Source: Eubacteriaceae bacterium
GTDB taxonomy: Bacteria > Bacillota > Clostridia > Lachnospirales > Lachnospiraceae
DNA: 56,180 nt
Direction: 5' to 3'
NCBI GenBank assembly: GCA_910575665.1
Contig: CAJTFB010000027.1
Coordinates: 1 to 56,180 of the forward strand
Shown here: piece by piece, positions 6,240 to 48,953 of the stretch
Layout of the letters: every line of letters begins with the position of its first letter
Position numbering within the stretch: position 1 is the stretch's first letter
Position numbers and translations under genes: made by a program
The notes under the pieces: generated by a model
Told to the model about the DNA's origin: nothing
Databases searched by the model: none
Seen by the model: only the letters and a program-made list of their open reading frames with translations

Positions 6240-7794
6240 TTGCGCCTCCATTCTTGGCATTTCCCACACTTCCATTCCCGGCGCTTCCCATGCCTCCATT
6301 TCCGCGTCTTTCTTTCATCTGCTCTCTTCCCGCGCCATTCGGCGGTGTTCCAGGTGCTCCGCCGCCAAACATATCAAATCCATTTTCTTCGGGCTTATCA
6401 TCCCCATTGTCAGATACCATATCTGTCGATATTAGGATCTCCATTCCCTCCTTTAACTGATCTCCACTGATTTCCACGTAATAATCACTTTCCATTCCCT
6501 TTTCAACTGAAATCTCTGTGAAGGATTTTCCTTCCGCTGTATTCCCAGAGACATATACTACCGAAGATCCCTCTGCATTTTCGTGGATCGCATCATAGGG
6601 CACAGCGTACACATCCCTGACTTCTTCCAGAACAATACTGCATTTGGCTGTGAGTCCCATACGAAGCCTCTCGTCTTCTGTTTTGATATCAATATTTACC
6701 TCGTACCCGCTATTGGAGGATGACGCAGTGCTGCTCATCCCCGTTCCCCCTGCGGACTGGGACGTCGTCCCAGAGAAGGAACTGCTGCCCGTGGTAGGCG
6801 CCACAAAGCTGATCTCACCCTCGATCTCATCCTCGCCAGTCGCTTCTGTCAATACAGCCACCCTCTGGCCTTCCTCAACCTTGCTGATGTCATATTCGTC
6901 AACACTTGTAGAAATCACATAGGAGCTGTTGTCATCGATCTGGATCATATCACTACCATTGTAGACTTCTCCTTCTTCGATACCGATCGATGTCACGATT
7001 CCAGAGATGGGAGCTGTTACAGCACATTTTTCCAGTGTTGCAGATGCATCTTCCACCTGCTTTTCCGCTTCCCGGATACTCTTTTTATGATTGGATTGCG
7101 CTGTCTCTACGGCATTTTCTGCATTTTCCACGCTATTTTTATTTTGCTTCTCTTCGTTCTTCCGGGACTCTTTTGCCGATTCGTAAGCGCTCTCTGCCTG
7201 TTTAACTGTTTCCTCTGCCTTCACGAGCTGTTCCTGCAAGCGCTTCTTTGTCTCTGCATCTTTTTCTTCCGAAATTTGTTCATTCAATTTTGTAACCTGC
7301 TTTTTAGCGCTCCGAAGCTCTTTTTTGGACTCTGTTACCTTTGTGGCAGCTTCCTCTTTTCCCTCACTGTAAGATTCTTTCGCTTCTGACAGTTGTTTCC
7401 TGGCAGATGACAAGTTTCTTTCCGCCTCCTCCCTGGTATCACTCAGAGATTGCTCTGCCTCTGACAAGGCTTTCTTTAGATCACTCTCATCAAATTTTAC
7501 CAGGGTGTCTCCCTTTTGGACCGTATCTCCTGCCTTGACACATACCTTTTTTACCCGCACGCCATTTACTTCTGCCGACACAGTTCGGCTCTGGCTGCTG
7601 CCGATCGTTCCCGTGGCACTGATCGACTTTGTTAGATCCATTTTTTTCAGGGAGATACTGCTCTGCTCCTGAACCTGGTTCTCTGCCATGGCGCTGTTTC
7701 CTCCACGGGTTAGAAAAAACACCACAGCTGCTGCCACGACACAAACTGTCCCTCCGATCACGCATAATTTCCATTTCTTACCTTTCTTCTTCAC
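6229..7794 (-). CDS. HlyD/MacA-type membrane fusion protein of ABC exporter
   Basis: This adaptor subunit is predicted to sit outside the membrane and dock on the MacB-like permease. The 521 residues comprise an N-terminal membrane anchor (about 11-30), a lipoyl-like half (about 65-100), a long E/K/A-rich coiled coil (about 100-250), the second lipoyl half (GIVTSIGIEEGEV), and beta-barrel domains. The C-terminus is unusual: a glycine/asparagine-rich tail from about 465, with repeats such as GNGSVGNAKNGGANVK. The start is GTG at 7794 after AGGAGG. The gene is first in the operon, and a GGGG/CCCC palindrome lies upstream of it. In a Gram-positive cell no outer-membrane channel is expected. Confidence 0.87.
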   Translation of the reverse strand: MKKKGKKWKLCVIGGTVCVVAAAVVFFLTRGGNSAMAENQVQEQSSISLKKMDLTKSISATGTIGSSQSRTVSAEVNGVRVKKVCVKAGDTVQKGDTLVKFDESDLKKALSEAEQSLSDTREEAERNLSSARKQLSEAKESYSEGKEEAATKVTESKKELRSAKKQVTKLNEQISEEKDAETKKRLQEQLVKAEETVKQAESAYESAKESRKNEEKQNKNSVENAENAVETAQSNHKKSIREAEKQVEDASATLEKCAVTAPISGIVTSIGIEEGEVYNGSDMIQIDDNSSYVISTSVDEYDISKVEEGQRVAVLTEATGEDEIEGEISFVAPTTGSSSFSGTTSQSAGGTGMSSTASSSNSGYEVNIDIKTEDERLRMGLTAKCSIVLEEVRDVYAVPYDAIHENAEGSSVVYVSGNTAEGKSFTEISVEKGMESDYYVEISGDQLKEGMEILISTDMVSDNGDDKPEENGFDMFGGGAPGTPPNGAGREQMKERRGNGGMGSAGNGSVGNAKNGGANVK

Positions 7795-7842
7795 TGGCGA
7801 ACCTCCTCTATTTTATTTTTAATATTCTCAGATTAAGATGTT

Positions 7843-7866
7843 GGGGTCAAAAAGTATTTTGCCCCC
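7843..7866. promoter_or_regulatory. Palindrome upstream of the exporter operon
   Basis: GGGGTCAAAA and TTTTGCCCC form an inverted repeat with a single bulged T, centred near 7854. It lies about 50 bases upstream of the GTG start of the adaptor gene and has no T-run on the minus strand. It is a candidate operator or leader hairpin; no regulator gene is adjacent. Confidence 0.4.
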
Positions 7867-7901
7867 CGACGAATGCTACGATTGAATTTCTATATTTAGC
7901 A

Positions 7902-7936
7902 TAAAAAAAAAGTATGAACAGAAGATGTTCATACTT
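7902..7936 (-). terminator. Terminator overlapping the end of dusB
   Basis: On the minus strand AAGTATGAAC (7936-7927) pairs with GTTCATACTT (7919-7910) across a 7-base loop, followed by a run of eight T. The TGA stop of dusB lies inside the stem. Confidence 0.88.
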
Positions 7937-8924
7937 TGATATATGTGTGAAAGCTCTCCAGTAACCTCTCCAGGTCTTCCATCGTTTCAATCTCATTTAC
8001 CCTACGTCTCATGGAGGCAGAATGGGGATATCCGGAAGTGTACCAAGCAAAATGCGACCTCATCTCTCGCATGCCATAGAGCTCTCCCTTCCATTCCGTC
8101 TGCATCCTGGCATGACGCAAGATCATCTGTGCCAGCTCCGGTAGCTCTGGTCTGGAAAGTTCCTCGCCGGTCTCCAGATAATGGCGAATCTGCGGAAAAA
8201 TCCAGGGATTTCCCCGGGCTCCCCGCCCGATCATCAGCGCATCACAGCCTGTCTCCATAAACATCCCTTCCGCATCCTTGCCGGTAAAAATATCTCCGTT
8301 TCCGATCACCGGAATGGACACCGCTTCCTTCACCCGGCGGATGACACCCCAGTCCGCCCTTCCGCTATAATATTGCTCCCGCGTCCTTCCATGAACGGCA
8401 ACAGCTGACGCTCCTGCCGCCTCTGCCGCCTTCGCCAAATCCACCGCCTGTTCTTCCCCATCCAGAAATCCCTTACGGAATTTAACCGTCACCGGTTTAT
8501 GCACTGCTTTCACCGTCTCCCGGATGATTTTCTCCGCCAAAGGGATATTTTTTAATAGCGCAGAACCTTCCCCGTTATTGACGACTTTGGGTACCGGACA
8601 CCCCATATTGATATCCAGAATGTCAAAATTCCGTTCTTCGATCTTCGCTGCCATACTGCTGATGATCTGCGGATCCGATCCAAAGAGTTGCAGTGCCACC
8701 GGACGTTCTTCCTCCTTCACCTCGAGAAGAGCTTCCGTATTCTTACTATTATAATAGATTCCCTTGGCACTGACCATCTCCGTATAGATCAGGTCTGCTC
8801 CCTTTTCCTTACACAGCAAACGAAAAGGCAGGTCCGTCACCCCTGCCATCGGTGCCAGAATCAGCTTTCCGGGCACCATCACATCTCCGATCCTCCATGG
8901 CTCATCTGCTTTCATCCGGTTCAT
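7929..8924 (-). CDS. dusB: tRNA-dihydrouridine synthase
   Basis: This flavoenzyme reduces uridine to dihydrouridine in tRNA D-loops. The 331 residues contain the FMN-binding APMAGVTD at 24-31, the catalytic cysteine C109 in [10 protein letters not shown], and HGRTREQ and NGDIF motifs of the TIM barrel. The frame is open to 8966, but the ATG at 8924 follows a GGGAG site by 6 bases and gives the usual N-terminus. The gene overlaps the 3' end of coaX by about 23 bases, so the two are coupled. The stop codon is inside the terminator stem. The family paralogue (DusB type) is the usual assignment in Firmicutes. Confidence 0.93.
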
Positions 8925-9717
8925 CAGCACTCCCTTTCTTTTTCTCTGCCGCCTTTGTTTTTTCATAGATCAGGCGAGTTCCCTGAAGGGTAAGATTCGG
9001 ATCATAAATATCGATCAGCTCCGTCGCATCCGATATACTTCTTCCAAGTCCTCCTGTTGCCACAACTTTAATATTTTCTATGGCTGACTCTTCCTTCATT
9101 TTGCGGATAATATATTCCGTCTGACCAATAGTTCCATAGAGCAATCCTGCTTGCATACTGGTTATAGTATTTTTTGCAAGGATCGAATCCGGCTTTTTGA
9201 TCTCGATCTCCGGAAGCTGTGCAGCACTTGACCAGAGCGCTTTAGCACTGATCTTTATTCCCGGACAGGTAACACGGGCCGCAAACACACCTTCCCCCGT
9301 CACCAGGTCATAGGTGGTGGCTGTACCAAAATCAATAACGATCACCGGTCCTCCGTATAGTTCATAGGCGCCTACCGCATCCACGATGCGGTCCGCCCCG
9401 ATCTCACTCGGATTGGAAGCCGCGATATGAATCCCCGTTTTGGTGCCATTTCCTACAATATAGGGTGTGGTGTGAAAATATTTCTTGATCCCGCTTACCA
9501 GAGAGTACATAACTTTCGGAACTACAGAAGCAATGATCACATCCTGGATCTGAAATTCTTTGATCCCATGTCTCGCCAACGCCTCTCCGATGGCCTGTCC
9601 AAATTCATTGGAAGTTCTCGGAAGATTCGTCGTCAGACGAAAGGTAAAGCGAAGCTCTTCTTCCTCAAACACTCCAAAGGTAAGATTGGTATTCCCAATA
9701 TCTATCGCAAGTAACAT
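8902..9717 (-). CDS. coaX: Type III pantothenate kinase
   Basis: CoaX phosphorylates pantothenate in the first step of coenzyme A synthesis. The 271-residue protein shows the ASKHA phosphate motif [10 protein letters not shown] at 6-15, the [12 protein letters not shown] segment near 108-119, and DFGTATTYD near 130-138. It carries a charged C-terminal extension of about 15 residues rich in K and E, which overlaps dusB. It lies in a run with argF, citrate synthase and DUF6145. ATG start at 9717, with AGGA a few bases before. Confidence 0.95.
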
Positions 9718-14256: not shown

Positions 14257-15042
14257 TTACTGTCCTCTCTGCCGATGGATCTCATACATTAAAAGGGCTG
14301 CTGAAACCGCAGCATTTAAAGATTCCAACTGTCCCTCCATGGGAATCTTCACTCCCACATCGGCTTTTTCCGCGGTCTCTAAACAGAGCCCCCTGGCCTC
14401 ATTTCCAATCAATAAGCCCGTCTTACCACGGTAATCGGCATGGGTATAGTCCAATTCGGTATCCAGCCTTGCAGCAACCATCTGGAATCCCTGACACTTT
14501 AAATTTTCTACTTCTGTAGACATATTCTCTGTTACATAATAGGGCATCCGATACAATGCACCCATGGTAGAGCGTACCACTTTCGGATTAAACAGATCCA
14601 CGCATCCTTTGGACAATAGTACCCCTCTCATACCGGCCCCCTCCGCCGTTCTCATAATAGTTCCTAGATTTCCCGGGTCCTGGATATCTTCCAGACATAC
14701 CAACGCCGCTCCTTCCTCTGCCAGAATCTTTTCCCGATCATATTCTGGCATGCGGATCACAGCAAGGACTCCCTGAGGGGAAGCGGTATCGGATAATTGC
14801 CGAAAAACAGCGTCAGACACCCATTCTATATTCTCTTTTCCTATTGTATGGGATAACTTTGAAAAATATTCTTCTTCTGCGGACTCTGCCACATACATGG
14901 TCTGAACCAGTCCGTGAAGCAGCCCTTCCTCTGCCATTTTGAATCCTTCCGCAATAAAGACCCTTTCCTGCCTGCGGAACCGGGAACTTTTCTTTAATTT
15001 TCCGATTCGCTTGACCTGGGCATTGTTCATACTTTCAATCAT
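14257..15042 (-). CDS. TrmH/SpoU-family RNA 2'-O-methyltransferase
   Basis: This SPOUT enzyme is predicted to methylate a ribose 2'-OH in rRNA or tRNA using S-adenosylmethionine. The 261 residues include an N-terminal substrate-binding domain (RRQERVFIAEGFKMAEEGL near 23-41) and the SPOUT knot with motif 1 (QDPGNLGTIMRTAEGAG near 119-135), motif 2 (LIGNEARGL) and motif 3 (IPMEGQLESLNAAVSAALL). It follows the TetM-like/NYN gene by 38 bases on the same strand. In B. subtilis the related yacO (rlmB) sits beside yacP (rae1), so the pairing of this family with a NYN nuclease domain is preserved here. The substrate is unknown. Confidence 0.9.
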   Translation of the reverse strand: MIESMNNAQVKRIGKLKKSSRFRRQERVFIAEGFKMAEEGLLHGLVQTMYVAESAEEEYFSKLSHTIGKENIEWVSDAVFRQLSDTASPQGVLAVIRMPEYDREKILAEEGAALVCLEDIQDPGNLGTIMRTAEGAGMRGVLLSKGCVDLFNPKVVRSTMGALYRMPYYVTENMSTEVENLKCQGFQMVAARLDTELDYTHADYRGKTGLLIGNEARGLCLETAEKADVGVKIPMEGQLESLNAAVSAALLMYEIHRQRGQ

Positions 15043-15080: not shown

Positions 15081-17687
15081 CTAGCTCGACGGCTGATTTA
15101 CCAAGCTTGCCCTCTGGACCTCCTCCCAGAAAGTGGCAGCCGACATTCTCGTGGCACCATGCCCCAGAATGATGATCTGTTCCATGCCGTCAGAGGTCGC
15201 CACCCGCACCCGGTGTTTCCCGGCGATGCGCTTTGTCGTCTTTTCAATATACATGTCCGCCGTTTCCGCTTCCTTGGTATAGACGATACTGATATTATGA
15301 AACTGCTCCACACTGCCAGGATTTCCTTTTACCTTATAGGCATCAAATACAAGGATCAGATGACAGCCAGTATATCCCTGGTAATTACACATGATATCCA
15401 TCAGTTTCATCCTCGCGGCGTCCATGCTGACACCAGAGAGCTCTTTCAGGTCGTCCCAGGCAAAAATAATATTATAACCGTCCACCAGCACATATTCCTC
15501 CACTGGCTTCCGTTCACGAATCTTCACCCTCTGTTTCTCTTCCTTTGCCCGAATCACCTTTGATGCGGTATTGGCTGCCTTGGGCTTCACCGCGCCATAG
15601 GTTCTCTCGAAGATCGCCTGGAGTTCTTTTTCCTCGGCATAAAAATCCCTGGAAGCCGTTGAACGATTTCTCTCTGCCCCATTCTTCGAATCCCTCTGGT
15701 GATTTTCGTCATCCCGCCTCTTCCCAGAGGCTAATACGCTCTCCAGATGCATATGCTCCGGTACTTCATTCCATTTGACCACATATCCAGACCCATGAGC
15801 ACAAAACACAGAGTCCGGGGTATTTTCCACATCAGCCTCCGCATCGTACCCGATCTTTTCCCTGACTTCCGACTCATTGTGGCAGGGCTGATAACCGGCT
15901 GTCATACAGCTCAAATGACCCCGTCCCTTTGTATATGAGGCAAATTCTACCGGATAATCCTTCATGGCTGCCACCGGGCAGATTCCGGTAAGAACCGACA
16001 TGCCTGCCTGCTCCGGCTGCACCTCAAACTCTCCGCTCATTCGCTTTATATCCGTCATGGCGCGTCCGACATTTTCTGTCGGCAGCTCCAACCGAAACTC
16101 ATAGCAGGGCTCTAAAAGAACACTCTTTGCCTGCATCAGTCCCTGACGCACAGCCCGGTACGTCGCCTGTCGGAAATCACCGCCCTCTGTGTGCTTGAGG
16201 TGGGCACGGCCTGCCATCAGCGTAATCCTGATATCCGTGATGGGCGATCCGGTCAGTACCCCGGCAAATTTTTTTTCTTTCAGATGGGTCATCACCAGTC
16301 GCTGCCAGTTCAGGTCCAGCTTGTCCTCGCTGCATTCCGTCCCGACCACAATTCCGCTTCCCGGTGGCAGCGGTTCCATCAAAAGATGCACCTCTGCATA
16401 ATGACGCAGCGGCTCGAAATGTCCTACCCCCTCCACTACATCTTGTATGGTCTCTTTATAAAGAATATTTCCCTCACCAAACTCTACCTCCATCCCAAAA
16501 CGTTCTACCAGAATTTCTTTCAAAACCTCCAGTTGCACCTCTCCCATAGGCTGAATAAACATCTGGTGCAAGTTCTCATCCCAGGAAAGATGAAGTTTGG
16601 GATCTTCTTCCTCTAACTGGCGAAGCTTCCCTGCTGCCGCCGTCATATCCGTTCCCTCTGGAAACAAAATGGAATAACGAAGTACTGGTTCCAACTGTTC
16701 CCCGTTAAAGTCCAGTTCGGTTCCAAGCCCCTGACCCGGATACGTATGATTTAAACCGGTCACCACACAAATATCTCCTGCGCTTACTTCATCGGCGGTC
16801 TCGTATTTTTCTCCAGAATAGAGCCGGATCTGGTTTACTTTCTCACCCTCTCCCAGTACCTCCTTCACCCGGAGCTTTCCCCCTGTGATCTTTAAGTGGG
16901 TAAGTCGACTACCCTGGGCATCCCTGGATATCTTAAAAACCCTGGCGCCAAAGTCCTCTTTGTTGTCCACACATGTAGTATATTTATGGATTGTATCCAG
17001 CAGTTCTTCCGTCCCCTCCAGCCGCAGCGCCGATCCAAAGCAGCAGGGAAAAAGCTTTCTCTGTGAGACCAGGGGACACAGTTCTTCCGGGAGCTCCAGC
17101 ATTCCTTGCTCCAGATATTTCTCCAATAGCGCCTCATCACATACAGCCGCTTCTTCCATAAATTCCTCAGAGGCTGTATCTGTAAAATCAACACAACTGG
17201 ATGAAAGCTTCTGCTTCAGCTCCTCCATCATCTGCTGCCTGTCTGTTCCAGGAAGATCCATTTTATTTACAAACAAAAAAACAGGGATCTGATAATGCTC
17301 CAACAGCTTCCACAGCGTCTCTGTGTGCCCCTGGACACCATCAGTTCCACTGATCACCAGCACCGCATAATCCAGTACCTGCAGTGTCCTCTCCATCTCT
17401 GCGGAAAAGTCCACATGTCCAGGCGTATCCAGAAGGGTGATCTCCGTATCTCTCCAGACCATCCTTGCCTGTTTGGAAAAAATCGTGATACCCCTCTGCC
17501 GCTCATGAACATCTGTATCCAGAAAGGTATCCTGATGATCTACCCGGCCGGCTTTTCGTATCGCACCGCAGGCATAGAGCATCGCCTCTGACAAGGTAGT
17601 CTTTCCCGCATCCACGTGAGCCAGAAGGGCGATACTGACTCTTTTTGAAGTTTTTTTGTTCCATCTATTTTTAGACGTATCTTCCAT
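15081..17687 (-). CDS. TetM-like translational GTPase fused to a NYN (Rae1/YacP-like) nuclease domain
   Basis: The N-terminal 660 residues are an EF-G-like ribosomal protection GTPase: G1 HVDAGKTT 24-31, G2 RGITI 65-69, G3 DTPGH 87-91, G4 NKMD 141-144, followed by domains II-V with the TetM-like GGDFR, LLEPCYEF, YTKGRG and GYQP features. A charged linker (about 660-729) leads to a NYN/PIN-like domain (730-860) with acidic residues D736 (VDGYNI), D782 (VFDAY), D811 and D833 (ATSDG). TetM itself is about 640 residues, so this is a fusion, not a plain resistance gene. In B. subtilis the stand-alone Rae1 cuts mRNA in the ribosomal A site; a factor that enters the same site fits that job. ATG start at 17687 after AGGAAGGGA. 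A trmH-type gene follows. Confidence 0.88.
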   Translation of the reverse strand: MEDTSKNRWNKKTSKRVSIALLAHVDAGKTTLSEAMLYACGAIRKAGRVDHQDTFLDTDVHERQRGITIFSKQARMVWRDTEITLLDTPGHVDFSAEMERTLQVLDYAVLVISGTDGVQGHTETLWKLLEHYQIPVFLFVNKMDLPGTDRQQMMEELKQKLSSSCVDFTDTASEEFMEEAAVCDEALLEKYLEQGMLELPEELCPLVSQRKLFPCCFGSALRLEGTEELLDTIHKYTTCVDNKEDFGARVFKISRDAQGSRLTHLKITGGKLRVKEVLGEGEKVNQIRLYSGEKYETADEVSAGDICVVTGLNHTYPGQGLGTELDFNGEQLEPVLRYSILFPEGTDMTAAAGKLRQLEEEDPKLHLSWDENLHQMFIQPMGEVQLEVLKEILVERFGMEVEFGEGNILYKETIQDVVEGVGHFEPLRHYAEVHLLMEPLPPGSGIVVGTECSEDKLDLNWQRLVMTHLKEKKFAGVLTGSPITDIRITLMAGRAHLKHTEGGDFRQATYRAVRQGLMQAKSVLLEPCYEFRLELPTENVGRAMTDIKRMSGEFEVQPEQAGMSVLTGICPVAAMKDYPVEFASYTKGRGHLSCMTAGYQPCHNESEVREKIGYDAEADVENTPDSVFCAHGSGYVVKWNEVPEHMHLESVLASGKRRDDENHQRDSKNGAERNRSTASRDFYAEEKELQAIFERTYGAVKPKAANTASKVIRAKEEKQRVKIRERKPVEEYVLVDGYNIIFAWDDLKELSGVSMDAARMKLMDIMCNYQGYTGCHLILVFDAYKVKGNPGSVEQFHNISIVYTKEAETADMYIEKTTKRIAGKHRVRVATSDGMEQIIILGHGATRMSAATFWEEVQRASLVNQPSS

Positions 17688-35858: not shown

Positions 35859-35860
35859 AA

Positions 35861-35946
35861 TGCTGGTAACCGGAATCGAACCGGTACGGGTGTCACCACC
35901 CACAGGATTTTAAGTCCTGGGCGTCTGCCAGTTCCGCCACACCAGC
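35861..35946 (-). tRNA. tRNA-Leu (anticodon TAA)
   Basis: The 86-base cloverleaf has the long variable arm of a class II tRNA, acceptor GCTGGTG pairing with TACCAGC, the T-arm GGTTCGATTCC, and anticodon loop CTTAAAA giving TAA. The CCA end is not encoded. It is last of four tRNA genes before the terminator. Confidence 0.95.
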
Positions 35947-35987
35947 ATATTATAATTATTTCACAAGATAAACTTTTATCTTGCAAG

Positions 35988-36061
35988 CGACCCAGGAGGG
36001 ACTCGAACCCTTGACCTCTGCCGTGACAGGGCAGCGCTCTAACCAACTGAGCTACTGGGCC
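35988..36061 (-). tRNA. tRNA-Asp (anticodon GTC)
   Basis: The cloverleaf starts GGCCCAG, has the D-arm AGCTCAGTTGGTTAGAGC, anticodon loop CTGTCAC and T-loop GGTTCGAGTCC. Discriminator base is G, as expected for tRNA-Asp. Confidence 0.95.
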
Positions 36062-36069
36062 AGATCAAA

Positions 36070-36143
36070 TGGACCCTCGGGGACTCGAACCCCGGACCGT
36101 CCGGTTATGAGCCGGATGCTCTAACCAACTGAGCTAAAGGTCC
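36070..36143 (-). tRNA. tRNA with CAT anticodon, probably tRNA-Ile2 (or elongator Met)
   Basis: The 74-base cloverleaf starts GGACCTTTAGCTCAG and has anticodon loop CTCATAA. The acceptor stem and body resemble Firmicutes tRNA-Ile2, whose CAT is modified to lysidine by TilS to read AUA, more than elongator tRNA-Met. The first base pair is G-C, so it is not initiator tRNA. Confidence 0.85.
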
Positions 36144-36209
36144 AAACTTATATTGTTTGGAAATACAAAACGATTGATATTACTTTTGACCCTATTCTAT
36201 AGGCATCTA

Positions 36210-36281
36210 TGACTCCTACGGGAATCGAACCCGTGTTACCGCCGTGAAAGGGCGATGTCTTAACCGCTTGACCAAGGAGCC
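36210..36281 (-). tRNA. tRNA-Glu (anticodon TTC)
   Basis: The 72-base cloverleaf starts GGCTCCTTGGTCAAG, has anticodon loop CTTTCAC giving TTC, and T-loop GGTTCGATTCC. It is the first gene of the cluster and the promoter lies 46 bases upstream. Confidence 0.95.
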
Positions 36282-36327
36282 AGATCTCACTGTAAGTCCT
36301 AGACATAAATGCCTAGCAACAAGAAAT

Positions 36328-45257: not shown

Positions 45258-48020
45258 TCATTTTTTTATAACTGCTGCTTTAGATAGTCCTTTTCCTTTA
45301 AATAACTTCTTATAAAATTTAAGTTTTTTCCCCGGCACCTTTATCACTGCCTTCTTATAGATATTTTTAAAAGCAGATGAACCGATCTTCTTCACCTGAG
45401 ATGACTTCAAGTGAACCGTTTTTAACTTCCTGCAACCTTGGAATGCCTTCGTTCCAATCCTGGTAACAGACGTACCAATCGTAACGCGTTTCAGGTTTTT
45501 GTTGTTAAGGCATGCCTTTGAGGCTATACTGGTCACCTTTAGCTTTTGCCCAGAGCAGGACACCTCTGTCGGGATACTAATTTTAGAATTTGTCTTTTTT
45601 ATTGGTTTAATAAACTCTGCAGTCTTACTTCCCGTTACTTTATACCGCATGCCGCCAGCTTCAAATAAAGATCCTGTCTTTAACTTGTTTTTCGTACCAT
45701 CTGTGGTTGGCACCATGTTTGTATCCTGGGTATTCTGACTGTTATTTCCCTCTGTATTCTGACTATTATCAACACCGGGCTGCGGTTCCGGCACACTCTG
45801 TTTCTTCTCCACAACAACGGTCATCATAACACTTTTATTTTCTGGAAGAATCTCAGCCTCTTCCTCCAAATCCAAAACAGGTTCTCCATCCGCGCCAAAA
45901 TGAACGATGCGCAGGAACGTATCTCTCTGGAAAGCACCTCCGTCTCCCGGTCTGGCGTGGAACATGTTGATTAGGTTTCCATCCTCATCTGTCACATAGG
46001 AATTGTGCCCTGGACCATGATAGATATCCTGTCCCCTGGAAGACAAACCAGTCAATATCGGATAATTTGTCTTTTTCCAGGAAGCCGCGTCCAAAAAATC
46101 CACCTCCTCCGATAATTCAATCTGAGTCATTCCTACACAATAGGTCTCATCCGTGGCGCCTCCAGAATAGGTAAGATATAATTTATCTTTTGTCATAATA
46201 ACAAAAGATCCTTCGTTTACAAATGTATGATTTCTCTCCCAGCTGTATTCGCAGGGTACGATCATGACCGGCTTACTGATCAGGCGCCCTGGGTCCTCTG
46301 CCGTCGTCTCACCGATCCACAGGTCCGCAGTCCCGCCATTTTTCCCGAAATTTCTCTGTGACCAGACCACATAATGTCTGTCATTGTAGGAAAAATGCGT
46401 CATATCAAGAGTAATGCCACCATACATCGTATTTAACACTTTCCCGTTATGATCCAGATAGCGGCTGGGAGCTTCCCAGTCGTCATAATTTATCGGGTCC
46501 CCACCTGTACGCAGTTTCATGATAACGCTCTGTACATCCCATCCTGTGCCAATATTGGAAGCAAAGAACATGTACAATTCACCATCGATCTCATGCAGCT
46601 CAGGAGCCCAGTGTTTATCTTTTGAAACAATATTTCCCTCCGCTCCTTTTGCCTCATCATACACCAGATGATCCTCCGCCTCATTCAGTCCTGCCACTGT
46701 ATCGGATTCCCGCATGTATAAATTCACATTTCCGCTTCCTTGTTCGTTGGTAGCGATAAAATAATATTTCCCGTTGAATTTTATCACGTTGGGGTCCGCT
46801 CTTCCCGCAATATAAGGATAATTGCCTGCCTCTGAAATCCGGTCGGAAAGCTGTCGTATCGTTCCTCTAACTTCATAAGTTCCTTCTTTATAAAAGTCAA
46901 CCTTAGCAAGATCGCTCTCGTCCCATGTCACACTCTTTTCTGCCTCAGACCCATCCGAATAGTGCGCCTTCACCTTCACCCCGGATAAGTCTACCGCCTT
47001 ACCAGGCTCAGTCTGGACATTTGCACTTTCCACTGCCGTATTCACAATAGGTTTTAATTTGTCCTCGATCCTTTTTGCTTCTTCCGGTGTAACTGGAATC
47101 ACATTGCCTTCAATGGCATAGGTTATCCCTGAATCCACAACCTCTTTTTTGATGGGCGCAGCCTCTTCTTTTTCCTGAATCGTCACAAAATCTGCCGTCT
47201 GGTTCACATATCCAGTCCCCGTCTCCCCGCAGGTCCATGTAATATAGTAGGTATCGGAAACCTTGTCGTACACACATGCTGGATCCTGGACAGAATCTTC
47301 CTCACTTAATGTAATAAGCCCCTTTTCTTCATAAGAAATAAGGTCATTTGAAGTAAAAAACAGAACTTTTCCCTTCTGGTCGCTGGCTTCTCCCCCCTCA
47401 TCCATGCGAAGGGCAAGAACGCCAAAACTTCCATCCTTCCTTCGGAAAATATAAGGCTGTTTCAGCACCTTGGTCTTTTCCCCCTCATTTTTAGCAAACA
47501 GCACCCCCGTATTGTGGTTTAGAGCTTCAAAAGTCTTTCCATCCCCGCTATATCCTAGATGAAGACTGTCTGTCACAGCTGATTGATACATGCCATGAAC
47601 CTTTCCATTTCTCTTGATCGAGTCATCTTCTTCCCTGGTATATCCTAAGACATATCCAGAACCCTTGGGAAGCACCTGCACAGAAAAGTTCTTTTTCTTT
47701 GTGCTGTTATCTGCCAATGTGATTTCCGCTTCTAGATTTACCTCTGTGATGCTCTGCTCTGGAGCTGCGATCTTTCCCGTGGAAACATCTATGATCTCCT
47801 GATCCGCTGTCCAGCGGATCTTCGCATCCCCCAGCTGCATGGGAAGGATATCCCGCTCCGACATATAATAAGGTAACAATAGCTGCTCAAATGCAGCTTC
47901 CGCTGACACTCCCACACTCTGGGCTGCCTTCATATGTAACGGAAACATTCCACTGGCCAAAGCAAATAGTAAGAGATAAGCCATGATCTGTTTCATTTTT
48001 TTTGACACTTTTGCTCTCAT
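45258..48020 (-). CDS. Secreted GH43 glycoside hydrolase with Ig-like domain and BspA-type leucine-rich repeats
   Basis: This 920-residue secreted enzyme probably releases arabinose from plant polysaccharides. Order of parts: signal peptide (1-33), an N-terminal beta-propeller-like region (about 115-290), a bacterial Ig-like domain (about 338-390), the GH43 five-bladed propeller (about 396-715) with candidate base D409 in RADPN, D539 in LDMTHF and acid E603 in NEGSF, a linker of N/Q/T repeats (740-780), and BspA-type LRR units (about 785-920) with repeated KVTSIASKAF-like elements. No LPxTG anchor is present; the LRR part may bind cell wall or substrate. ATG at 48020 follows GGGGTGG; the longer open frame to 48290 overlaps the divergent AraC gene and is rejected. 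Confidence 0.88.
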   Translation of the reverse strand: MRAKVSKKMKQIMAYLLLFALASGMFPLHMKAAQSVGVSAEAAFEQLLLPYYMSERDILPMQLGDAKIRWTADQEIIDVSTGKIAAPEQSITEVNLEAEITLADNSTKKKNFSVQVLPKGSGYVLGYTREEDDSIKRNGKVHGMYQSAVTDSLHLGYSGDGKTFEALNHNTGVLFAKNEGEKTKVLKQPYIFRRKDGSFGVLALRMDEGGEASDQKGKVLFFTSNDLISYEEKGLITLSEEDSVQDPACVYDKVSDTYYITWTCGETGTGYVNQTADFVTIQEKEEAAPIKKEVVDSGITYAIEGNVIPVTPEEAKRIEDKLKPIVNTAVESANVQTEPGKAVDLSGVKVKAHYSDGSEAEKSVTWDESDLAKVDFYKEGTYEVRGTIRQLSDRISEAGNYPYIAGRADPNVIKFNGKYYFIATNEQGSGNVNLYMRESDTVAGLNEAEDHLVYDEAKGAEGNIVSKDKHWAPELHEIDGELYMFFASNIGTGWDVQSVIMKLRTGGDPINYDDWEAPSRYLDHNGKVLNTMYGGITLDMTHFSYNDRHYVVWSQRNFGKNGGTADLWIGETTAEDPGRLISKPVMIVPCEYSWERNHTFVNEGSFVIMTKDKLYLTYSGGATDETYCVGMTQIELSEEVDFLDAASWKKTNYPILTGLSSRGQDIYHGPGHNSYVTDEDGNLINMFHARPGDGGAFQRDTFLRIVHFGADGEPVLDLEEEAEILPENKSVMMTVVVEKKQSVPEPQPGVDNSQNTEGNNSQNTQDTNMVPTTDGTKNKLKTGSLFEAGGMRYKVTGSKTAEFIKPIKKTNSKISIPTEVSCSGQKLKVTSIASKACLNNKNLKRVTIGTSVTRIGTKAFQGCRKLKTVHLKSSQVKKIGSSAFKNIYKKAVIKVPGKKLKFYKKLFKGKGLSKAAVIKK

Positions 48021-48087
48021 TTTACCACCCCTTTTCATCATTCTACTTCTGTAGTTATTCCTTTCATGATCCAGAATCCTTTTCTTC

Positions 48088-48116
48088 ATTATAAACGATT
48101 GAAAATTGACATGCCA
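48088..48116 (-). promoter_or_regulatory. Probable promoter of the GH43 gene
   Basis: TATAAT (48093-48088, minus) is a consensus -10 box. TGGCAT (48116-48111) at 17 bases is a poor -35 box, which fits dependence on an activator such as the divergent AraC protein. Confidence 0.45.
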
Positions 48117-48139
48117 TGATATATAATAAAATATAATTT

Positions 48140-48155
48140 GATATATTGTTATATC
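48140..48155. promoter_or_regulatory. Palindromic operator candidate between GH43 and araC-type genes
   Basis: GATATA-TTGT-TATATC is a perfect 16-base palindrome about 24 bases upstream of the GH43 -35 box and about 30 bases before the AraC-type start. The position fits both activation of GH43 and self-control of the regulator. Confidence 0.4.
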
Positions 48156-48185
48156 TGACCAATATGATGCAAAGGAGGCCCTGCC

Positions 48186-48953
48186 GTGATTGATATTATA
48201 TATGTACAGTATAATACAACCCATGAAAACAATTTTGTCTATTATGAGGATGACCAGACACGGGACTGGTGGCTTCTGCTTATGACACATACCCCGGCTT
48301 TTTTTATCATAGAGGATAAAAAATATATCATGCCTCCGAAAAGCGCTATATTATATCCACCCTATGTGCCACTTCACTACGGCGGCCACGAAAGTTATTT
48401 TAAAAATGACTGGATCCGTTTTTATACCGACGAAAAATTTATCTGTGATGGAAAAGTCCCCACCTGTATCCCTTTTGAGATCAAGGAATTTAGCTTTATC
48501 CATCATTTATTTAAGCAGCTTGCCTCGGAAAATTTTTACTATAATAAATACAAAACCAAAACCATCCTCACCCTGTTTGAGCTAATGTTTTCCAAACTTG
48601 AGGAATCCCTTTCCTTCCGGTCGGAAAACACACAAATCAAAAATCTGCTGTCCCTGCGCCTGAATATAAAAAATGATCCAGGTTTTGACTGGACCATTCC
48701 TTATATGGCAGATTCTCTTCATATGAGCACAGGATACTTACATACCCTGTACCGGGACACCTTTGGTATCACCTGCATGGATGATGTAATCCAGATGCGT
48801 CTGGATTTGGCAAAAGATTATTTACAACACAGCTCTGTCTTAATTCAGACCATCGCCCAAAACTGTGGTTATAAGAACGTTGAGCACTTCAGCCGCCAGT
48901 TCAAAAAGCACACTGGCATGTCACCCAGAGCATATCGAAAAAGTTTTTCTTAA
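48186..48953 (+). CDS. AraC-family transcriptional regulator
   Basis: This 255-residue protein has an N-terminal cupin-like ligand domain (about 1-100, with LLLMTHTPAFFIIEDKKY and PPKSAILYPPYVPLHYGG) and a C-terminal AraC double helix-turn-helix (WTIPYMADSLHMSTGYLHTLY, VLIQTIAQNCGYKNVEHFSRQFKKHTGMSP). It is divergent from GH43 and probably controls it in response to a sugar. The start is GTG at 48186, 7 bases after AGGAGG. Confidence 0.92.
   Translation: MIDIIYVQYNTTHENNFVYYEDDQTRDWWLLLMTHTPAFFIIEDKKYIMPPKSAILYPPYVPLHYGGHESYFKNDWIRFYTDEKFICDGKVPTCIPFEIKEFSFIHHLFKQLASENFYYNKYKTKTILTLFELMFSKLEESLSFRSENTQIKNLLSLRLNIKNDPGFDWTIPYMADSLHMSTGYLHTLYRDTFGITCMDDVIQMRLDLAKDYLQHSSVLIQTIAQNCGYKNVEHFSRQFKKHTGMSPRAYRKSFS

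Follow-up and report, generated by a model that had tools for sequence, protein, structure and literature searches.

Many gut Clostridia apparently carry Rae1 as a domain of a Tet-like translational GTPase in place of a separate enzyme

The window analysed here, a stretch of 56,180 nucleotides (nt) on contig CAJTFB010000027.1 of a Eubacteriaceae bacterium (assembly GCA_910575665.1, Lachnospiraceae in the GTDB lineage), encodes an 868 amino acid (aa) protein in which a translational GTPase resembling EF-G and the tetracycline-resistance (Tet) proteins is followed by a Rae1/YacP-type NYN nuclease domain. Rae1 is described, in passages of two papers, as an endoribonuclease of the ribosomal A site, with access perhaps helped by stalling, that needs translation to destabilise mRNAs (PMC6613710, PMC10100781). 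We favour, with moderate confidence, the reading that the fused gene is the Rae1 (YacP) of its lineage, placed on the C-terminus of a translational GTPase that does not confer resistance, and that the protein would act as an A-site mRNA nuclease coupled to the GTPase. We read it so because the GTPase motifs and the Rae1 active-site residues are intact, the gene is a core gene and nearly always the single match of its genome, and no yacP lies beside rlmB.

The gene, for which the first-pass annotation had named no strand, lies on the minus strand (Table 1), and its ATG is preceded by AGGAAGGG, a good Shine-Dalgarno-like sequence. That annotation had described a full EF-G/TetM-like GTPase joined to a NYN domain, and Pfam agrees, with the EF-G domain series I to V over residues 16-605 and NYN_YacP over 733-860 in one open reading frame (ORF). 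Both the NYN and the G domain are matched in 46 of the 46 proteins of alignment A1, which excludes a chance ORF or a local fusion made in assembly. In an alignment of 81 fused proteins, the DTPGH and NKxD motifs are kept in all 81, RGIT in 80 and the G1 pattern in 77. This alignment holds 80 distinct proteins (L073 duplicates L108) and one pair at 99.7% identity, and excludes fused loci with broken or cut frames (L140, L143, L144, L146, L149, L150, L152, L153 and L155). Five close relatives were aligned, and in comparisons with four of them the ratio of non-synonymous to synonymous substitution rates (dN/dS) falls within 0.095-0.12 in the GTPase and 0.07-0.095 in the NYN domain. Purifying selection acts on both domains and on a motif in the linker between them.

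Table 1. Parts of the fused gene and its downstream neighbour in window coordinates; residues are those of the 868-aa protein.
Feature	Residues	Window positions	Strand	Evidence or remark
Fused gene, EF-G/Tet-like translational GTPase plus Rae1/YacP-type NYN domain	868 aa	15081..17687	minus	Single uninterrupted ORF
G domain (AHVDAGKTT, RGIT, DTPGH, NKMD)	16-237	16977..17642	minus	Pfam GTP_EFTU, E=5e-54
Domain II	246-314	16746..16952	minus	Pfam EF-G_D2
Domain III	333-404	16476..16691	minus	Pfam EFG_III
Domain IV	407-521	16125..16469	minus	Pfam EFG_IV
Domain IV tip loop GRAHLKHTEGGDFR	493-506	16170..16211	minus	Clade signature replacing the Tet YSPVST loop
Domain V	523-605	15873..16121	minus	Pfam EFG_C
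Clade-specific extension, GYD..D..N...SVFC.HG.G..V.W..V...MH	606-655	15723..15872	minus	
Variable charged linker	656-729	15501..15722	minus	Low predicted confidence (pLDDT)
Linker motif ELQAIFERTYG	688-698	15594..15626	minus	Overlaps predicted helix 679-697
NYN_YacP (Rae1) domain with D736, D782, D811, D833	730-861	15105..15500	minus	Pfam 733-860, E=4.6e-47
Downstream SpoU/TrmH-type methyltransferase gene		14257..15042	minus	38 nt past the stop of the fused gene

The domain search proposed at first pass returns NYN_YacP (E=4.6e-47), with a PF05991 score of 160.5 bits against a curated cut-off of 24.6, and two B. subtilis YacP structures solved by crystallography, 5MQ8 and 5MQ9, align with the NYN part (E about 1e-25). 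The four acidic residues already singled out, D736, D782, D811 and D833, stand at these positions and, counted on the crystal-structure alignment, align with Rae1 D7, D53, D81 and D104. None of the four varies among the 81 aligned fusions or among the 30 standalone YacP proteins compared, and the fusion also retains most positions that standalone Rae1 conserves. The ribosome-linked nuclease role put forward at first pass is plausible.

AlphaFold2 modelled the whole protein with a mean predicted local distance difference test score (pLDDT) of 80.1 and a predicted template modelling score (pTM) of 0.63. Most 10-residue blocks of domains I-V lie at 76-95, with dips to 57-74 near residues 11-20, 51-70, 91-100 and 491-500, and structure alignment, which covers residues 8-615, matches this part to EF-G structures and lists no match for the NYN domain. 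The NYN blocks score 78-91 except for 781-790 (63), 831-850 (55 and 70) and the last eight residues (59). The structure prediction proposed at first pass hence recovers the EF-G fold over residues 8-615, and it models the NYN domain with low confidence in the blocks 781-790 and 831-850, which contain D782 and D833.

Among 150 genomes of the window's family, PF05991 is detected in 137 and is the single match in 133. It lies in a fusion-length frame (806-1,095 aa) in 124 of the 150, although in several of these rows (G023 and G079 among them) stop codons interrupt the profile match. Five more genomes (G033, G078, G081, G115 and G119) look like cut or frame-broken fusions, judged by their GTPase pieces, and eight have a standalone or unclear PF05991 (G005, G017, G022, G043, G048, G054, G082 and G137). 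In none of the 13 genomes without PF05991 is the GTPase matched at E<=1e-30. The window genome has no PF05991 match other than the fusion, and a domain IV search finds only EF-G and the fusion there. In a draw from the phylum, PF05991 is present in 219 of 398 genomes and the GTPase (E<=1e-80) in 37; in a draw from the class the counts are 250 and 173 of 393. In the class, 126 genomes have a GTPase match under 1e-206, a cut-off set after viewing the list, and each of them has the NYN domain; the strongest class match without it is at 3.7e-200 (G814). The family, phylum and class surveys find the fusion across many families, its named relatives being mostly Lachnospiraceae, Ruminococcus, Oscillospiraceae and other Clostridia. 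Unfused relatives of the GTPase are not confined to Clostridia but extend to other classes of the phylum.

The usual place of a separate yacP, beside rlmB, is empty in the 30 fusion genomes examined; this place is not a requirement for membership of the Rae1/YacP family. Three of the four standalone loci looked at in the family (L098, L099 and L100) keep the order cysS-mrnC-rlmB-yacP-sigH, which beyond yacO-rae1 we take to be that of B. subtilis; L098 has one further ORF between yacP and sigH, and the rlmB-yacP-sigH order is not kept at the fourth (L097, genome G048). RlmB, SigH and CysS were confirmed by NCBIfam and mrnC was named by eye. The RlmB (yacO) gene of the window genome (240.7 bits) lies on a different contig, where 45 nt separate it from sigH and there is no yacP. 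Of 32 genomes searched, the RlmB loci of 30, all with the fusion, were examined, and yacP was found beside rlmB in none of these 30 within the 3.6-3.8 kb examined per locus; sigH lies at -56 to 295 nt from rlmB in 22 of them, and eight have no sigH in the stretch. The simplest reading places the one Rae1 of these bacteria on the GTPase. The G048 genome encodes a standalone YacP away from rlmB (L097, 8234-8752) that is 62% identical to the window NYN domain and may have arisen by later fission of the fusion.

The architecture itself was published in 2015. In passages of Atkinson 2015 (PMC4342817), Tet proteins of ten Clostridiales species are reported to have acquired a YacP-like NYN RNase domain, and a new mechanism of antibiotic resistance is suggested. 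These fusions share the Tet-like GTPase and YacP-like NYN domain described here; they differ in that ten species and a resistance role were given there, whereas the fusion is here a core gene of the family, falls outside Tet(M/O/S/Q) and would stand in for Rae1. The passages of the Rae1 and Tet literature that were compared do not mention the fusion beyond Atkinson 2015; Condon 2018 may discuss it.

That the fusion is a ribosomal protection protein conferring tetracycline resistance, its nuclease serving as a further means to that end, is in our judgement improbable. The ten clostridial fusions were filed under Tet in those passages, the best-scoring solved relatives are TetO and TetM, and the best NCBIfam hit of the window protein is tet_protect. 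Yet this hit reaches 406.5 bits against a cut-off of 775, whereas Tet(O) and Tet(M) controls score 847 and 880. The tip of domain IV also differs: HxKHT.GGDFR is common to fused and unfused members of the clade, with HTxGG in 79 of the 81 fused proteins (the exceptions are L093, where it is changed, and the divergent L081 of genome G149), whereas Tet(M/O/S/Q) have YSPVST, which we take to be the domain IV loop residues of Tet proteins. Domain IV loops in general have a role in displacing the drug, according to the same passages (PMC4342817). The phylogeny that had been proposed, a 62-row GTPase tree with 28 fused proteins, splits off Tet(M/O/S/Q) with support of 100/99; these classes are represented by four proteins, and Otr(A) and other Tet classes are not in the tree. 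The core distribution of the gene, nearly always a single match per genome, also argues against a resistance determinant. Finally, a true Tet M/W-type gene is present in 25 of the 150 family genomes, all 25 of which also have a fusion-length frame. A fusion that gave full protection would leave an extra Tet gene little to contribute, although the fusion may give low-level protection. The first-pass annotation had likewise suggested a role other than ordinary tetracycline resistance, and the tip, the score below the tet_protect cut-off, the core distribution and the accompanying Tet genes all point that way.

Compared with its relatives, the fusion shares the EF-G-like domains I-V with Tet(M) and Tet(O) at 31-32% identity, but their tip loops, C-termini, curated scores and distribution are unlike; Tet(M/O) are 639 aa long and have no NYN domain. 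EF-G has the same fold and GTPase motifs (about 26% identity for the genome's own EF-G), but another tip, and the fusion adds the NYN domain. The unfused HTEGGDF-clade GTPases of Clostridia and Bacilli have the same tip signature and C-terminal extension at 40-51% identity, but end at about 640-700 aa without a NYN domain. The extension at residues 606-655 is common to the unfused homologues compared and absent from Tet(M/O/Q) and EF-G.

Some relatives are of interest in their own right. A megaplasmid of Ligilactobacillus salivarius encodes an unfused GTPase of the HTxGGDF clade (L275, 2998-4917) that is annotated as a TetM/TetW-family resistance protein, scores 384 against the tet_protect cut-off of 775 and lies near an ISL3-family transposase. 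The L081 protein (6674-9460) is a divergent 928-aa fusion that has the NYN domain but neither an EFG_IV match in Pfam nor the HTEGGDF tip, and its genome, G149, also carries a true Tet gene (L172). A contig labelled as a Treponema metagenome-assembled genome holds a 632-aa GTPase-only relative at 54% identity (L144, 7986-9884), explicable by misbinning, truncation or transfer. The two long phage hits, MT835563.1 (marked UNVERIFIED) and MT835514.1 (H41 and H42), are unannotated fecal records; they contain relatives of the fusion at 58% and 52% identity and are probably bacterial scaffolds or DNA. A single origin of the fusion is weakly favoured in the GTPase tree (66/92) and not rejected in the NYN tree, which took in 26 fused proteins (approximately unbiased test, p-AU 0.396); in the NYN tree the fused domains do not form a clean clade, and standalone Lachnospiraceae YacP proteins lie beside them.

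The linker (residues 656-728 in the window protein) is 57-115 aa long among the fusions, with a median of 68. A relaxed form of the pattern ELxxIFxRTYG, written after viewing the linkers, matches 64 of 81 linkers versus 5 of 16,200 shuffles, and many of the 17 linkers that miss it hold the variant EIDQIINxTFYANQGKK. Against the same four relatives, dN/dS is 0.25-1.05 for residues 656-680 and 0.07-0.18 for 701-729, and 0-0.13 over the 20 codons of the motif, where one pair has no synonymous change. The motif is a possible docking element for some partner.

These linker data bear on the alternative that the GTPase has a translation role of its own and that the NYN domain is kept as Rae1, fused for stoichiometry only. 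We consider this unlikely, though it deserves more weight than the resistance hypothesis. A long linker with a weakly constrained first half would suit it, as would the existence of unfused GTPases, some in genomes without YacP, and of many YacP genomes without the GTPase. It accounts less well for the conserved motif, the constrained second half of the linker, the persistence of the fusion over many families and the NYN domain in every class genome with a GTPase match under 1e-206. We give little credence to another possibility, that the fusion is a nuclease of rRNA or tRNA maturation or of ribosome assembly steered by the GTPase. NYN domains have been proposed to mature rRNA and tRNA (cited in passages of PMC4342817), and standalone YacP genes adjoin rlmB. 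Against this, the characterised relative, Rae1, destabilises mRNAs in a translation-dependent way according to the passages cited above (PMC6613710, PMC10100781), and its aspartates and motif residues are kept in the fusion.

Several observations weigh against the identification of the fusion as a GTPase-coupled Rae1. The NYN domain belongs to the same family as B. subtilis Rae1/YacP (PF05991; 5MQ8/5MQ9), keeps the aligned aspartates and surrounding motifs and usually occurs once per genome, but sits behind a translational GTPase, has no copy beside rlmB and has relaxed positions 845, 847, 852 and 853; in the window copy its C-terminal part is also short. It ends near Rae1 residue 139, and its Pfam match stops at 130 of 166, unlike those of other fusions, which extend to 165-166. 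R166P is a loss-of-function change in B. subtilis Rae1, as given in a passage of PMC6613710. At positions that are near-invariant in standalone YacP, the fusions have drifted: A845 is kept in 45 of 81, R847 in 46 and E808 in 66, with E at 852 in 39 (T in the window) and L at 853 in 54. One may guess that the GTPase now supplies docking formerly given by the Rae1 C-terminus and these four relaxed positions. The tip signature is missing from the divergent fusion of G149 and changed in L093.

The joint distribution of the separate genes is also mixed. Among family genomes without the fusion, six have both genes (one of them, G082, with a broken GTPase), two have YacP alone, none the GTPase alone and 13 neither (Fisher 5e-4, kinship ignored). 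In the class survey, YacP is present in 18 of 24 genomes with an unfused GTPase versus 97 of 234 others (p=0.002, partly hand-classified and kinship ignored). Nine genomes classed by hand as fused or broken are subtracted in this comparison (G510, G130, G896, G417, G687, G821, G727, G861 and G714; for G727 and G861 the family was the only ground). Hits from 1e-80 to 1e-140 are set aside, and G804 (2.8e-149, frame not listed) is omitted. GTPase frames are listed for 14 of the 18 cases; G641, G754, G816 and G915 rest on standalone YacP frames. The class association comes mostly from one family, and an unfused GTPase without YacP occurs in six class genomes (G569, G571, G594, G607, G707 and G814) and two phylum genomes (G461 and G506); G483 and several weaker GTPase hits without YacP are of unsettled kind. 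Moreover, of the 250 class genomes positive for YacP, 89 lack a GTPase match at 1e-80, so Rae1 elsewhere needs no such GTPase. Strict co-occurrence of the unfused GTPase with YacP is rejected by these strong exceptions, and there is no strict dependence either way.

With the fusion taken as the Rae1 of its lineage, we advance a broader model more tentatively: the HTEGGDF clade may be an unrecognised family of housekeeping translational GTPases hidden under Tet annotations, which in much of Clostridia absorbed Rae1 to become a GTP-gated A-site mRNA nuclease whose EF-G-like arm probes the stalled ribosome. Factors of the TetM/EF-G type occupy the same ribosomal A site. In the favoured reading, the GTP-bound fusion would dock like EF-G or TetM on ribosomes with an empty or stalled A site, its HTEGGDF tip reaching the decoding centre to probe the site. 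Ribosome-triggered GTP hydrolysis would then release domain IV, and the tethered NYN domain would take its place and cleave the mRNA at the codon in the A site, the action proposed for Rae1 of B. subtilis. With the message destroyed, the ribosome could be rescued. The linker motif might serve as a docking or gating element. The least certain step is this order of delivery and swap, or else action on a neighbouring ribosome, one of which is proposed because both modules cannot easily share the A site.

The architecture and acidic residues given in the first-pass annotation are confirmed and its non-Tet role is supported, but it also took the TrmH-type gene downstream as an echo of the yacO-yacP pairing, and this argument fails. 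The neighbour is a SpoU/TrmH paralogue with an MRM3-like substrate-binding domain, it scores 142.7 bits against the RlmB cut-off of 160.15, and the true RlmB lies on another contig without yacP. Of the 80 loci, 78 have a downstream ORF, and in only 4 of them is this the TrmH-type gene; the four are close kin with neighbours 87.6-95.4% identical, so that the gene gives no evidence of function. No conserved neighbourhood was seen beyond close kin in up to four ORFs on either side. Elsewhere, the window carries a cluster of four tRNA genes (Leu, Asp, Met and Glu; 35860-36282, minus strand) and encodes a 1010-aa protein with GH43, Big_4 and BspA-type leucine-rich repeat domains (45258-48290).

What is added here to the published architecture (known from passages of PMC4342817) is the family distribution, the empty yacP place beside rlmB, the tip signature of the clade, the linker motif and the true Tet genes beside the fusion. 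On this comparative evidence, the fusion looks like a core ribosome factor and not a tetracycline-resistance gene. If this is true, common gut bacteria would have a ribosome-triggered nuclease built into a translational GTPase, and the route of Rae1 to the A site would become directly testable by asking whether GTP hydrolysis licenses cleavage. A set of core genes that homology now places with the tetracycline-resistance proteins would then shift to ribosome quality control.

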